Shown: positions 8,826-31,860 of the stretch, in pieces
Layout: each line of letters opens with the position of its first letter
Position numbering within the stretch: the first letter of the stretch is position 1
NCBI RefSeq assembly: GCF_900101965.1
Contig: NZ_FNAP01000005.1
Location: forward strand, 124,001 to 188,000
Direction of reading: 5' to 3'
DNA from: Rhodospira trueperi
Lineage (GTDB): Bacteria > Pseudomonadota > Alphaproteobacteria > Rhodospirillales > Rhodospirillaceae
Length of the DNA: 64,000 nt
Notes under the pieces: generated by a model
The model's input: only the letters and a program-made list of their open reading frames with translations
Told to the model about the DNA's origin: nothing
Databases searched by the model: none
Made by a program: the position numbers and the translations under genes

Positions 8826-11800
8826 ATGACCGTGCCCAATCCGGCACCGCTCGATCCCGTGGCCCTGGCCGGGCGGGAGCAGCGCCGCGCCGCCGACCCG
8901 GCCGTCTCGGCCTGGGTGGCGGCCAGTGCGGGCTCGGGAAAGACGAAGGTGCTGACCGACCGGGTGCTCAACCTGCTGCTGGAGGGGACGGCGCCTGAGC
9001 GCATCCTGTGCCTGACCTTCACCAAGGCGGCGGCGGCGGAGATGGCCAACCGCCTCGCTCGACGACTGGCCGACTGGGCGGTGACCGACGACCCGTCTTT
9101 GGCGAAGGCGCTGGCGGACCTGTCGGGAGCCCGCCCCGATGCCGAACGGATGGCCGGCGCGCGGCGCCTGTTCGCCCGCGTGCTCGATACGCCGGGCGGC
9201 CTGCGCATCCAGACCATCCATGCTTTCTGTCAGTCGGTGCTGCGCCGCTTCCCGCTGGAGGCCGGCCTCTCCCCCGGTTTTCGCGTGATGGACGAGCGGC
9301 AGGCCGCCGAGGCCGCCGAGACCGCGCTGCGCACGGTCCTGGAGGCGGCGCGGCTGGGCGATCCGACGGACGATCCGCTGGCGGCGGGCCTGGAGGCGGT
9401 GAGCGCGCGCGTGTCCGAGGACCGCTTTCCCAAGCTGATGGCGGCAATGAAGGGCGCGGGGGCGCGTCTGCGCCGCATGTTCGCGGCGCGCGGTGGGCTC
9501 GCCGGCGCCCGCGCCGCCACATATGCCCGCCTGGGTGTGGCCGAGGGCGAGACGCCGGAGGGGCTGACCCGGGCCGCCTGCATGGATACAGCGTTCGACG
9601 GCGCCGGTCTGCGGACGGCGGTCGAGGCGCTGGCCGGTGGCGCCAAGACCGACCAGGGCCGGGCCGAGGCACTGGCGGCATTTCTCGCTGCGCCGCCGGA
9701 TCAGCGACCGGGCCTGATGCCGGATTACGAGAAGGTGTTCTTCGACAGCAAGGGCGCGCCGCGTCCGGTCGAGAAGCTCTCCGCCACCAAAGCCGTGCGG
9801 GAGGGGTGCCCGGACGCGCTGGACGCCCTGGGCGCCGAGCAGACGCGTCTAATTCGCCTGTCGGAGCGCCGCCGTGCCGCCGCCGTCGCCGAGGCCACGC
9901 GCGCCCTGCTGACCGTCGCGGACGCCTATCTTCGGGCCCTGTCGGAGCTGAAAGACGCCCGCGCCCTGCTCGACTTCGACGACCTGATCCACCACACCCG
10001 CGCCCTGCTGGAACGCTCGGACGGCGCCGCCTGGGTGCTGTTCAAGCTGGACGGCGGCATCGACCACCTGCTCATCGACGAGGCCCAGGACACCAGCCCG
10101 GATCAGTGGGCGGTCGCTCGCATGCTGACCGAGGAGTTTCACGCCGGGATGGGGCGCGAGGGACCGCGCGGCGATACCGTGCCGCCGCGTCGCACCGTGT
10201 TCGCCGTGGGCGACCGCAAGCAGTCCATCTACAGCTTTCAGGGCGCTGATCCGGCGGGGTTCGAGGCCATGCGCGGCCGCGTCGCCGACCGTGTCCGGGC
10301 CACCGGCGCGCGCTTCGAGGACGTCGGCCTGCACGTCTCCTTCCGTTCCACCGCGGCGGTGCTGGAGGCGGTCAACCGGGTCTTCGTTCAGGCCGACGCT
10401 CGCGACGGCGTGGCGGCGGGTGACGAGGACATCACTCACATTCCGTCCCGCGTCGGGCAGGCCGGTAGTGTTGAGGTGTGGCCGCCCATCGACCCGCCCG
10501 AAGTTCCCGAGCCCGAGCCCTGGAAGCCGCCGGTCGAGCGCCTGCGGGTGGAAAGCGCGCCGACGCGGCTGGCCGGTGTGCTGGCCCGGCGCATCCACGG
10601 CATGATCGATGGCGGCGAACGGCTGGAGGGACGGGACCGGCCGATCCGGGCCGACGATATCATGGTTCTGGTGCGCCGCCGCACCGCCTTCGTCAACGAT
10701 CTGTCGCGAGCGCTGAAGGGGCTGGGGGTGCCGGTGGCCGGCGCCGACCGCATGGTGCTGACGGACCAGTTGGCGGTGATGGATCTGATGGCGCTGGGGC
10801 AGGTGCTGCTGTTGCCCGAGGATGATTTGACGTTGGCTGCGGTCCTGAAGGGGCCGCTGATCGGCCTGACGGAGGAGCAGCTTTTCGAACTGGCCCACGG
10901 CCGTGCGCCGGGCGAACGGCTGTGGCACCGGCTTGAGGCGCGCGCCGGCGCCGATGATGCGTTCGGCGCCGCCTGGGATTATCTCTCCCGCCTGATGGCG
11001 CGGGCCGACCTGATTCCGCCACACGAGCTGTTCGCCCATGTGCTGGAGACCCGCGACGGGCGGCGGCGCCTGCTGGCGCGGCTGGGGCCGGAGGCCGATG
11101 ATCCCATCGACGAGTTCATGGCCCTGGCGCTGGCGCACGACCGCGACCGTCCGCCGTCGCTGGGCGGGTTCCTGCGGGCGCTGTCCGTCGCCGGGACCGA
11201 GATCAAGCGCGACCTGGAACACGGCGGGCAGGCGGTTCGGGTGATGACCGTCCACGGCTCCAAGGGGCTTCAGGCACCGGTGGTCATCCTGCCCGACACG
11301 CGCGGGATGCCGCCGACCGGCGACACTCACGTCTATTTCGACGGCGACGGCGACGACGCCCTGCTGCTGTGGCCGCCGCGCGCCGCCGACCGTGAGCCGG
11401 TCACCCAGGCGCTGGAGGACGCGCGCCGCGCCGGGCTGGAGCGGGAATACCGCCGCCTGCTGTATGTGGCCATGACCCGCGCTGAGGACCGGCTGATCGT
11501 GTGCGGCTGGAACACTCGCCGCGCGGCGTCCGGGGGATGCTGGCACGAGATGGTCGCGCGGGGCCTTCAGGGGTTCGCCGTGGCGGAGGAGGACGCCGAC
11601 CTGATCGCCTGCGGCATGGACGAGGACGAGGCCCTGGTGCTGCGCCACCGCTCGGATCAGACCCGTCCGCCCCGGCGTGAGGAGGGTGCGGCGGAGGCCG
11701 GCCCGTCGGTTCCGGAGCCGCCGGCGTGGCTTTTGCGGAACGCGCCGACCGAGCCCAGGCCCTCACGCCCGTTGGCGCCGTCCCGGGCGCCGTCCGACCC

Positions 11801-12368
11801 GCCGCCGGTCTCGCCGGTGGCCCGGGAGAAGCGGGCCCGTTTCCAGCGCGGGATCCTCGTCCACCGGCTGCTTCAGGATCTGCCGGCTCTGCCGGCCGAC
11901 CGTCGTGCGGAGGTCGCGCGGTCCTGGCTGGCGCGGCCGGTCCACGGCCTTGACGCAGGGACGGTGGACGCGTTGGCCGAAGAGGTTCTGGCGGTGCTGG
12001 ATCACCCGGATCTGGCTGCCGTGTTCGGTCCCGGCTCCCGGGCCGAGGTGCCGCTCGCCGGCGTGATCGGCGAGACCGTGGTGTCGGGGCAGGTGGACCG
12101 CCTCCTGGTCGCGGATGACCGCTTCGTGGTGGTCGATTTCAAGACCAGTCGCCCGGTGCCGGCCGATGCGGCCGCGATTCCGGATGCCTATGTGCGCCAG
12201 ATGGCGCTTTACCGGGCGGTGCTCCGGCGGATTGACCCGGATCGGGAGGTTCTGTGCGCCCTGGTTTGGACCGCCGGCCCGGGGGTGGTGATGCTCGACC
12301 CGGTCTCGATGGACCGGGTGTTGGGCGGCATCACTCCACACCCCGGACGAACGCCAGTTTTTTCGTAG
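8826..12368 (+). CDS. addA: AddA, helicase-nuclease subunit of the double-strand break repair complex
   Basis: A 1180-residue UvrD-like superfamily 1 helicase of the alphaproteobacterial AddA type. It has Walker A (ASAGSGKTKVL, about residues 33-43), motif Ia (CLTFTKAAAAEMANR), the Walker B region (DHLLIDEAQDTSPDQW), motif III (FAVGDRKQSIYSFQGADP), motif V (VMTVHGSKGLQAPVV), motif VI (RLLYVAMTRAEDRL) and the C-terminal RecB-like nuclease motif (GQVDRLLVADDRFVVVDFKTSR). With AddB it would resect DNA ends to a Chi-like site for RecA loading. The last three residues (VFS) and the stop codon come from an inserted REP element; the duplicated 3' segment shows that the original C-terminus was different (…PDERPGR). 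addB is not linked. Confidence 0.95.
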   Translation: MTVPNPAPLDPVALAGREQRRAADPAVSAWVAASAGSGKTKVLTDRVLNLLLEGTAPERILCLTFTKAAAAEMANRLARRLADWAVTDDPSLAKALADLSGARPDAERMAGARRLFARVLDTPGGLRIQTIHAFCQSVLRRFPLEAGLSPGFRVMDERQAAEAAETALRTVLEAARLGDPTDDPLAAGLEAVSARVSEDRFPKLMAAMKGAGARLRRMFAARGGLAGARAATYARLGVAEGETPEGLTRAACMDTAFDGAGLRTAVEALAGGAKTDQGRAEALAAFLAAPPDQRPGLMPDYEKVFFDSKGAPRPVEKLSATKAVREGCPDALDALGAEQTRLIRLSERRRAAAVAEATRALLTVADAYLRALSELKDARALLDFDDLIHHTRALLERSDGAAWVLFKLDGGIDHLLIDEAQDTSPDQWAVARMLTEEFHAGMGREGPRGDTVPPRRTVFAVGDRKQSIYSFQGADPAGFEAMRGRVADRVRATGARFEDVGLHVSFRSTAAVLEAVNRVFVQADARDGVAAGDEDITHIPSRVGQAGSVEVWPPIDPPEVPEPEPWKPPVERLRVESAPTRLAGVLARRIHGMIDGGERLEGRDRPIRADDIMVLVRRRTAFVNDLSRALKGLGVPVAGADRMVLTDQLAVMDLMALGQVLLLPEDDLTLAAVLKGPLIGLTEEQLFELAHGRAPGERLWHRLEARAGADDAFGAAWDYLSRLMARADLIPPHELFAHVLETRDGRRRLLARLGPEADDPIDEFMALALAHDRDRPPSLGGFLRALSVAGTEIKRDLEHGGQAVRVMTVHGSKGLQAPVVILPDTRGMPPTGDTHVYFDGDGDDALLLWPPRAADREPVTQALEDARRAGLEREYRRLLYVAMTRAEDRLIVCGWNTRRAASGGCWHEMVARGLQGFAVAEEDADLIACGMDEDEALVLRHRSDQTRPPRREEGAAEAGPSVPEPPAWLLRNAPTEPRPSRPLAPSRAPSDPPPVSPVAREKRARFQRGILVHRLLQDLPALPADRRAEVARSWLARPVHGLDAGTVDALAEEVLAVLDHPDLAAVFGPGSRAEVPLAGVIGETVVSGQVDRLLVADDRFVVVDFKTSRPVPADAAAIPDAYVRQMALYRAVLRRIDPDREVLCALVWTAGPGVVMLDPVSMDRVLGGITPHPGRTPVFS
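12267..12357. repeat. Left copy of a 91-bp exact direct duplication (addA 3' end)
   Basis: These 91 bases, starting TGGACCGCCGGCC and ending GGACGAACGCCAG, recur without a mismatch at 13193-13283. The copy lies inside the addA coding frame (WTAGPGVVMLDPVSM...). The two copies flank the REP/RAYT cassette exactly. Confidence 0.97.
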
Positions 12369-12474
12369 GTTGGGGTGAGGCCCAACGGGCCGAACCCCAA
12401 CGAAACCACCCCAACGAAACCACCCCAACGAAACCACAGCGCGTTGGGGTTCGCTTCGCTCACCCCAACCTACG
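12364..12474. repeat. REP pair (BIME-like), copy 1
   Basis: The element is bounded by a perfect 16-bp inverted repeat CGTAGGTTGGGGTGAG / CTCACCCCAACCTACG, with a nested inner inverted repeat (CGAACCCCAACG / CGTTGGGGTTCG). The centre carries three tandem 14-bp units CCCCAACGAAACCA. The addA stop codon is the TAG inside the terminal CGTAGG (12366-12368). Confidence 0.93.
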
Positions 12475-12551
12475 ACTGCATGTGTTCGTCTCTAAACGCG
12501 ATTAATCATGATATTGTTGTTGTCATGGCCTGAACAGAGAAGAGAGTCTCA

Positions 12552-13082
12552 ATGCGGTATCGACGCGCCTTGGTTGCGGGGGCGACTTGGTTCTTCACCG
12601 TGAACCTTGAAGATCGTGCCTCCCGCCTCCTTGTAGACCGTATCGACGTCCTTCGGGGTTCCGTTCATCATGTTCGCCGAAACCATCCTTTCGAGATTGT
12701 GGCATTTGTCGTGCTGCCCGATCATATTCATGCCATTTTGCGACTACCGGAGAACGATGCCAGTTATTCAATGCTATGGAGTTTGATCAAGGCAGGTTTT
12801 TCACGAAACATCACCCCAATTGAGCACATCGGGCAAAGCCGAAAACGAAAAGGGGAACGTGGCCTTTGGCAACGCCGTTTCTGGGAGCACATGATTCGGG
12901 ACGAAGATGATCTTCTCACCCACATAGACTACATCCATTTCAACCCCGTAAAACACGGGCATGTAGCGCGCGCCAGTGACTGGCCGCATTCGACCTTTCA
13001 TCGATATGTTGCTGACGGCCTGTTACCGGAAGACTGGGGGTGTGCCGATCCACCGGATGGGCGGTTCGGAGAACCACAATGA
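12552..13082 (+). CDS. REP-associated tyrosine transposase (RAYT, Y1 family)
   Basis: A 176-residue single-domain HUH/Y1 transposase. The HUH-like motif is LPDHIHAILR (about residues 56-65) and the catalytic tyrosine lies in the family signature HIDYIHFNPVKHG (about residues 131-143). WQRRFWEHMIRDEDD is also typical. RAYTs are single-copy relatives of IS200/IS605 TnpA that recognise and nick REP hairpins; matching REP pairs lie on both sides. The reading frame is complete, so the enzyme may be active. Its base composition is clearly lower in GC than its neighbours, which fits acquisition. A purine-rich AGAAGAGAG precedes the ATG. Confidence 0.93.
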   Translation: MRYRRALVAGATWFFTVNLEDRASRLLVDRIDVLRGSVHHVRRNHPFEIVAFVVLPDHIHAILRLPENDASYSMLWSLIKAGFSRNITPIEHIGQSRKRKGERGLWQRRFWEHMIRDEDDLLTHIDYIHFNPVKHGHVARASDWPHSTFHRYVADGLLPEDWGCADPPDGRFGEPQ

Positions 13083-13093
13083 TGTCGTGGCAA

Positions 13094-13190
13094 CGTAGGT
13101 TGGGGTGAGGCCCAACGGGCCGAACCCCAACGAAATCACCCCAACGAAACCACAGCGTGTTGGGGTTCGCTTCGCTCACCCCAACCTACG
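13094..13190. repeat. REP pair (BIME-like), copy 2
   Basis: Same 16-bp terminal inverted repeat and same orientation as copy 1, lying 12 bp after the RAYT stop. It differs by having two rather than three of the 14-bp internal units and a few substitutions (GAAATCACC for GAAACCACC; GCGTGTTGG for GCGCGTTGG). Confidence 0.92.
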
Positions 13191-13192
13191 AC

Positions 13193-13283
13193 TGGACCGC
13201 CGGCCCGGGGGTGGTGATGCTCGACCCGGTCTCGATGGACCGGGTGTTGGGCGGCATCACTCCACACCCCGGACGAACGCCAG
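13193..13283. repeat. Right copy of the 91-bp exact duplication (addA/lysE junction)
   Basis: Identical to 12267-12357. This copy continues into the lysE 3' end (lysE stop at 13257-13259 lies within it), so it represents the original chromosomal junction on the lysE side. Its addA frame stays open past the copy to TGA at 13301-13303. Confidence 0.97.
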
Positions 13284-13916
13284 ACGAACGCCCAGGCCGA
13301 TGAACACGGTGCCCAGCGCGCGTTCGATCCAGTGTGCCGACCGCTGGTAGGCGCGGCGCATCGGCGGCTGGCCGACCAGGACCGCGACCGTGGAGAAGAC
13401 CAGGAAGGTCTCGGCCATCATGGTCAGGCCGTACAGTCCCTTTTCGGGCAATGAGGTGTCTGGGTCGATCACCTGAGTGAACAGGGCGAGGAAGTACAGC
13501 GCCACCTTGGGGTTGAGGACATTGGTCAGGAAGCCCGCGATGAAGGCGGTGTGGCCGCGTGCGGCCGGCGGCCGGGCCGGTTCATCGCCCGAGGGCTCCG
13601 CGTGGGGCCGGGCACGCAATGCCTGGATGCCGATCCAGATCAGATACGCCGCCCCCATCAGCTTGATGATCGAGAACAACACCACGGATTGCGCGATCAG
13701 TACCGACAGCCCGGCCAATGTATAGATCACATGCACCGACAGGCCGGTGGCGATGCCGGCCGCCGTCAAAACGCCCGCCCGGATGCCCCGGGCCAGGGTG
13801 TTGCGCAGGGTGATGGCGAAATCCGGCCCGGGGCTGAGGATCGCCAGGATGTTGATCCCGGCCACCATGGCCCACGCGGCCCAGTCGATGGCAATGGGCT
13901 CCGCTGCTCCGGTCAT
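13257..13916 (-). CDS. LysE-family amino acid/metabolite exporter
   Basis: A 219-residue inner-membrane protein with about six hydrophobic segments. The family signature is seen near the N-terminus: INILAILSPGPDFAITLRNTLARG, followed by GIATGLSVHVIYTLAG and, mid-protein, AFIAGFLTNVLNPKVALYFLALF. These place it in the LysE/RhtB superfamily of homoserine/threonine-type exporters; the substrate is not predictable. Its start overlaps the acylphosphatase stop (ATG 13914-13916, stop from 13913), so the two are co-transcribed. Its 3' end was spared by the REP/RAYT insertion because it lies in the right 91-bp copy. Confidence 0.9.
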   Translation of the reverse strand: MTGAAEPIAIDWAAWAMVAGINILAILSPGPDFAITLRNTLARGIRAGVLTAAGIATGLSVHVIYTLAGLSVLIAQSVVLFSIIKLMGAAYLIWIGIQALRARPHAEPSGDEPARPPAARGHTAFIAGFLTNVLNPKVALYFLALFTQVIDPDTSLPEKGLYGLTMMAETFLVFSTVAVLVGQPPMRRAYQRSAHWIERALGTVFIGLGVRLAFVRGVE

Positions 13917-31771: not shown

Positions 31772-31776
<5 letters not shown>

Positions 31777-31860
31777 GTTGGGGTGAGGCCCAGAGGGCCG
31801 AACCCCAACGGCAGCACAGCCGAGGGGTGTTGGGGTTCACTCCGCTCACCCCAACCTACG
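31772..31860. repeat. REP pair (BIME-like), copy 3, between proB and proA
   Basis: Same 16-bp terminal inverted repeat (CGTAGGTTGGGGTGAG / CTCACCCCAACCTACG) as the two copies around the RAYT gene, and the same orientation. The centre differs (CAACGGCAGCACAGCC) and lacks the 14-bp tandem units. It provides the proB stop codon and separates proB from proA within the operon. No flanking duplication was seen. Confidence 0.92.

Follow-up and report, generated by a model that had tools for sequence, protein, structure and literature searches.

Within a 64,000-nucleotide stretch of the Rhodospira trueperi genome (the window; positions 124001-188000 of contig 10 in a 4.2-Mb draft genome of 50 contigs), an exact direct duplication brackets a cassette that carries a gene for a REP-associated tyrosine transposase (RAYT, or TnpA-REP). 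In window coordinates, the features are as follows.

8826-12368, + strand: addA-like helicase-nuclease gene, whose frame now stops 11 bases (stop included) into the cassette
12267-12357, + strand: copy 1 of the 91-bp duplication, made up of the 3' end of addA together with 27 bp from the lysE tail (gene ends compared with relatives in the genus)
12358-13192, + strand: inserted REP-RAYT-REP cassette, 835 bp
about 12363-12475: left REP pair, with 17-nt arms (TCGTAGGTTGGGGTGAG and its complement)
12552-13082, + strand: RAYT/TnpA-REP gene, 176 aa, open
about 13094-13190: right REP pair
13193-13283, + strand: copy 2 of the 91-bp duplication, containing the native lysE 3' end
13257-13916, - strand: transporter gene, open, which we take from its likeness to be LysE-like; its last 27 bp lie within copy 2

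As the preliminary description had stated, the two copies are identical (91/91 bases, start-to-start spacing 926) and enclose an intact RAYT with a REP pair on each side, the two pairs being 97-98% identical over 60-71 nt. The length of the repeat excludes chance: when left flanks were paired with right flanks of other REP loci in this genome (1,482 pairings), the longest common exact word was 27 bases, seen once, and in 1,478 it was shorter than 15 bases. When the genome was searched with the whole 1,017-bp unit, the other matches were parts of REPs, and none covered more than about 11 bases of either 91-bp copy (40 of 64 candidates scored). An assembly error, conceivable in a draft genome of 50 contigs, is a very improbable source of the repeat, which sits within a 268-kb contig and whose architecture recurs in other assemblies.

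The duplicated piece had been described as the 3' end of addA. The addA end is indeed present, but the last 27 bp of the repeat are, in antisense, the 3' terminus of the convergent lysE-like gene, whose stop lies at 13257. The repeat starts at a Trp-Thr pair close to the addA end; in three relatives of the genus that were read (L012, L013, L018), addA ends 25-26 residues beyond the matching Trp, and lysE in relatives (L016, L017) ends in line with the stop at 13257. Both copies hold both tails, copy 1 carrying also that of lysE and copy 2 also that of addA, and thus one earlier addA-lysE junction was duplicated. On the simplest reading of these gene ends, a single 91-bp meeting point of the two genes would have been doubled when the cassette arrived, both reading frames being kept open. 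Among five other members of the genus, addA and lysE lie on different contigs in three, and one gene alone was matched in two; the insertion event in the window is inferred by analogy with homologous loci.

The RAYT matches the model for REP-associated tyrosine transposases (NF047646; 191.5 bits, cut-off 80), the family PF01797 and the solved TnpA-REP chain 4er8_A (E 8.5e-45). In the alignment with that chain, its H58-I-H60 and Y127 (residue numbers counted by hand) fall on the HUH motif and on Tyr115 of E. coli TnpA-REP; Y115F is the catalytic mutant of TnpA-REP in the available part of PMC8266576. The gene lies between two inverted REPs with GTAG heads and has cognate REPs scattered across the genome, the arrangement by which a RAYT is recognized. 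From these sequence features, the protein is predicted to be a Y1 HUH nuclease, with predicted REP cleavage and strand transfer activities. In all these respects the unit resembles known RAYT/TnpA-REP cassettes (REPtrons), a kind regarded as a settled part of the bacterial chromosome, from which it differs in being bounded by an exact 91-bp target duplication. Against the IS200 model (NF033573) the protein scores 20.6 bits, below the cut-off of 55. The RAYT gene has a G+C content of 53%, compared with 68% for the window and 73% for addA. The ten best RAYT loci among the matches listed are 57-65% identical to it, and nine of them are, going by their names, presumably gammaproteobacterial. Given the low G+C and these best matches, the gene probably came from outside the lineage. 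At the threshold used, only one other genome of 73 in the family has a RAYT (54% identical). The preliminary description had proposed a search for further cassettes of the same RAYT in the genome; none was found, this being the sole RAYT found there, so no donor copy is visible.

Flanking duplications were sought at RAYT loci from three samples: (a) the best 80 of at least 584 RAYT relatives found; (b) 398 genomes of the phylum, searched with NF047646 (30 loci, the window among them, and 58 more); and (c) 369 genomes of one class (30 loci and 60 more). With 5 plasmid loci these make 263, in 252 of which tblastn recovered the RAYT; 238 had 600 bp on both sides and were tested (233 distinct loci, given five redundant pairs). 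The criterion was a direct repeat of at least 40 bp and at least 89% identity bracketing the RAYT, the control consisted of 308 positions in the same loci, and repeats that were REP sequence or RAYT remnants were removed by eye from both. Twelve of the 238 loci gave raw matches (L158, which is the window, L030, L032, L354, L091, L089, L103, L374, L349, L386, L160 and L319). Four were dropped as REP sequence (L032, L089, L160, L319) and L386 as a RAYT remnant; the two raw control matches, L353 (RAYT remnant) and L356 (REP), were dropped likewise. Long repeats thus remained at 7/238 RAYT loci, window included, versus 0/308 controls. With the window left out the contrast is 6/237 versus 0/308 (one-sided Fisher p 0.0065); it is 6/232 versus 0/306 when redundant loci are merged (p 0.0062), 11/237 versus 2/308 without any removals (p 0.0027), and 4/237 versus 0/308 when only REP-adjacent gene-end cases are taken (p 0.035).

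These four REP-adjacent cases (46-212 bp) are L103 (54 bp), L349 (99 bp), L354 (46 bp, with a greater length when synonymous differences are tolerated) and L091 (212 bp). Each of these repeats, like that of the window, is the 3' end of a neighbouring gene; this bias may be a survivor effect, insertion at a gene end being tolerated when the end is doubled. The other two cases were kept but are weak, L030 (41 bp) lying away from the REPs and L374 (67 bp) adjoining the RAYT and running into a REP. A further repeat that brackets a cassette, L324 (129 bp, 89%), lies beyond the 600-bp limit and was not counted. Earlier, looser scans gave more repeats, also in a control (8/146, mostly weak, one of them a near-identical RAYT piece, L072); in that of sample (b), 20 loci were listed, which apart from the window were judged REP-like by eye, and L157 and L173 were artefacts of coordinates on truncated loci. 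A later set of 29 loci (20 loci and 9 plasmid loci) contained no new duplication among its 23 new members, 4 plasmid loci having been tested before and 2 being too short. Long flanking duplications are a recurrent but rare pattern around RAYT cassettes. Among viral contigs, a single RAYT-bearing contig turned up three times, alongside one short match, and a phage search gave no RAYT; in the E. coli plasmid-collection matches examined, rayT stands among chromosome-type neighbours where annotated. RAYT clusters were also seen, at L353 and L384, and in one genome four RAYT genes lie within about 5 kb (G1033:C4:213820-219056).

With the site of L103, from Bradyrhizobium tropiciagri, as query, 146 Bradyrhizobium genomes were searched and 12 loci retrieved, of which eight lack a cassette and four have one. 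In all eight cassette-free relatives the 54-bp repeat is single, with no tandem pair, and continues into the sequence found after copy 2 of L103; its 50-bp core shows 0-1 substitutions in seven and a small deletion in one, and copy 1 of L103 equals the sequence of cassette-free relatives. Similarly, G617, which has no cassette, contains the 212-bp repeat of L091 once, continuing into the sequence that follows copy 2. Gain of a cassette with duplication and its loss by recombination between the repeats would each be consistent with these alignments; in both scenarios the repeat accompanies the cassette. The preliminary suggestion that a RAYT cassette can act as a unit thus gains from the recurrent flanking duplications and from the single copy in cassette-free relatives of one homologue. 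The same loci bear on a prior tandem duplication of the 91 bp with a cassette later landing exactly at the joint. The window locus offers no cassette-free relative to set against this sequence of events, which nevertheless demands a base-exact coincidence and a tandem state that none of the eight L103 relatives displays; it is highly unlikely. In the four cassette-bearing relatives (L296-L299, from G474, G561, G502 and G558), diverged RAYTs directly follow the transporter gene of L103, and a second copy was not seen. Of the seven nearest other Bradyrhizobium RAYTs, four or more lie at this gene end without a visible second copy, which free transposition would not predict. Compared with the RAYT-free relatives, L296-L299 are suggestive of gain and loss at a fixed address. 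At the gene of L091, a RAYT occurs without a visible second copy in G622; in G618 the RAYT is accompanied by a second copy of 60 bp that has decayed.

In L091 the two copies differ at 22 coding positions, 19 of them synonymous and 3 other (neutral share 0.23, p 6e-10, a pooled value in which changes in the working copy are counted too); using five relatives, 13 changes were assigned to the orphan copy, 9 of them at third codon positions. All six differences between the L354 copies are synonymous (p 2e-4; assigned to neither copy), and the nearest L354 relative, 76% identical, does not show which copy is native. L349, with two synonymous changes and one non-synonymous, is too small for a codon test. 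In L091 and L354 divergence reaches right up to the cassette, and the copies have diverged as working genes do, so that the two sides come from different lineages. By this codon pattern, L091 and L354 would have needed recombination between lineages, which argues against one mechanism for all cases. Such recombination is the core of the main rival reading, in which DNA of a cassette-bearing relative recombines by homology on one side while its REP end joins the recipient gene tens to 200 bases off (homology-facilitated illegitimate recombination), the native gene end remaining as the second copy. The process has been described for transformation and for E. coli conjugation (PMC3240628, as far as the available text goes), and relatives with a RAYT at the same gene exist for L091 (G618, G622) and L103 (G474, G561, G502, G558). 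Next to the imported DNA, the process would leave a gene end in duplicate, the two copies being diverged alleles, as L091 and L354 show. However, the copies are identical in the window and nearly so in L103, and copy 1 of L103 equals cassette-free relatives, which would make the donor almost the same strain; homologous import therefore explains these two less well than L091 and L354. Moreover, no RAYT adjoins addA or lysE in the genus-member loci examined, and import by itself does not predict the C|T dinucleotides found at both ends of the cleanest cases, described below; identical copies with such ends would not be expected of it. Overall we consider it rather unlikely, though a serious contender.

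About 40 REP pairs in the host genome belong to the family of the window REPs. Of the REP loci, 39 were examined for flanking repeats by exact matching and 38, without the triple repeat L132, by alignment. A long flanking repeat was found only at L130 (G000:C22:33079; 1/39 by exact search, 1/38 by alignment), a REP pair without a RAYT that has one MITE-like arm and an exact 38-bp flanking direct repeat, one end of which lies 44 nt from the REP, beyond the MITE-like arm. L130 suggests that insertion of a REP pair can also leave a duplication of this kind. L126, with a 14-bp flanking repeat (null p 0.009 among 38 tests), was left out of the count.

According to the portion of PMC8266576 available, TnpA-REP cuts single-stranded DNA at C|T on either the 5' or the 3' side of a REP, and the attacking 3' end must be C. 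The boundaries of the duplications were compared with this dinucleotide, on either the target or the element side. In a clean group, consisting of the REP-adjacent duplications whose copies are 95% or more identical (window, L103, L349 and the REP pair L130), a grouping chosen after the cases had been viewed, 7/8 ends fit C|T, compared with 1.2 expected from local sequence (p 7e-6); minus the window, 5/6 ends fit (p 2e-4). Read inward from the ends, the clean four start with CTG at 5/8. Both target sites of L103 read C|T in the eight cassette-free relatives; the top-strand target site of the window is T|T, with C|T on the element side only. In the automatic test none of the 8 ends of L030, L374, L091 and L354 fits, leaving 7/16 for all eight duplications (p 0.009); if synonymous changes are allowed, the L354 boundary shifts to C|T by eye, a shift left out of the count. 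Many junctions lie 2-14 nt outside the REPs, exceptions being the left end of L103 (about 40 nt), the right end of L130 (44 nt) and L030, which is not REP-adjacent. The staggered break envisaged in the preliminary description holds in outline, in that the clean-case boundaries fit C|T cuts on opposite strands, but the C|T excess weakens once the four less clean cases are included.

Such boundaries also bear on generic break repair or template switching, whereby a REP-RAYT-REP fragment would be placed, through 1-2 nt of microhomology, into a break with staggered ends or a stalled fork, with the RAYT uninvolved. Common bases of that length are possible at the window ends, and the duplications vary widely in length (38-212 bp), unlike those of ordinary transposases; further, an IS481 that lies at a REP cluster, between two duplicate segments of 60 kb, has been explained by insertion into a break (PMC11708052, in the part available). 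Generic repair accounts poorly for the many junctions 2-14 nt outside the REPs, for a C|T excess at the clean ones that matches the known site of the nuclease, and for the finding of such repeats at 0/308 control positions after exclusions. We regard it as quite unlikely.

The reading we prefer, to which we give about an even chance, is that the RAYT inserts its own cassette through C|T nicks lying tens of bases apart on opposite strands, with gap filling producing the duplication. The transposition unit would be the RAYT gene bounded by REP pairs. Acting as a Y1 HUH nuclease, the RAYT would cut single-stranded DNA at C|T just beyond the outer REPs of the cassette and would likewise cut the target at C|T, once per strand, with tens of bases between the two cuts. 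The 3'-OH ends of the element, both terminating in C, would then each be joined to a 5'-T of the target, and filling of the two long single-stranded target stretches would yield a long target duplication (91 bp in the window). The duplication, the intact RAYT, the recurrence, the single-copy sites of homologues and the C|T fit in the cleanest cases support this proposal; we infer from them the RAYT as agent of the cuts and joins, the order of steps and the passage of the window event along this path. Of the readings weighed, C|T-directed insertion is the one that best brings together the duplication, junctions lying outside the REPs and what is known of the chemistry, with homologous import as its main rival, and as such it is about as probable as not. 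Several findings count against it. Boundaries like these could also arise through microhomology of one or two bases; cuts are needed in targets that lack a REP (window, L103), although the L349 site does adjoin one; a long flanking repeat occurs at just 1/39 REP loci of the host genome; and the 23 further loci brought no new case. In the published assay, by contrast with the cuts in REP-free targets that the model needs, a 3'-C end of arbitrary sequence becomes attached to DNA that has been cut next to a REP (PMC8266576, available portion).

Conventional insertion sequences that form target site duplications create a short duplication of fixed length, which differs from the 91 bp of the window and the 38, 46, 54, 99 and 212 bp of the other cases. 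With IS200/IS605 elements (IS608, ISDra2) the unit shares a Y1 HUH transposase, palindromic ends and cleavage, here predicted, at a short motif; those elements, by contrast, do not generate larger target duplications (PMC2817692, as far as the accessible text goes). The outer units are REP pairs, as in REPINs or BIMEs, and the RAYT-free L130 has a flanking duplication too, but the window unit carries the RAYT gene itself. Movement of RAYTs as such has been suggested before, RAYTs having been found at novel chromosomal sites in three Pseudomonas strains (PMC3686654, in excerpt). REP-doublet excisions and unconfirmed insertions have been seen in sequencing reads (PMC3116915), and the spread of REPs and RAYTs is called unresolved or poorly understood in the available parts of PMC3116915 and PMC8266576. 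Long flanking duplications of RAYT cassettes are not described in the accessible portions of PMC2817692, PMC11708052, PMC3686654, PMC8266576, PMC3116915, PMC6006769 and PMC3733652. The broader proposition that RAYT cassettes are self-mobile, by HUH two-strand insertion with widely spaced C|T nicks and a long, variable target duplication, is tentative, its likelihood falling somewhat short of even. If true, it would be a mode of transposition undescribed for HUH transposases in the available text of the literature cited here, and could also spread REP pairs. Long duplications with C|T ends would be a footprint searchable in any genome, with a product that could be scored in vivo. They could also explain precise cassette loss, since recombination between the long repeats would restore the empty site.

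The window contains one further REP pair of the same family (31772-31860; G000:C10:155772-155860). Many REP pairs of the host genome lie centrally in a MITE-like element of about 170 bp with imperfect inverted ends (ATACGAA...CGCTTGAT..GTTCGC), as in L107, L113, L115, L117, L120, L131, L137-L139 and others; given this position, part of the REP spread in this genome may be that of the composite element. L132 (G000:C22:184695-186806) consists of three tandem copies with a period of 208 bases, the unit being a REP pair plus 112 bp of flank, and in the REP pair L124 (G000:C14:256371) the inner part has expanded into a long CCCAAC run.
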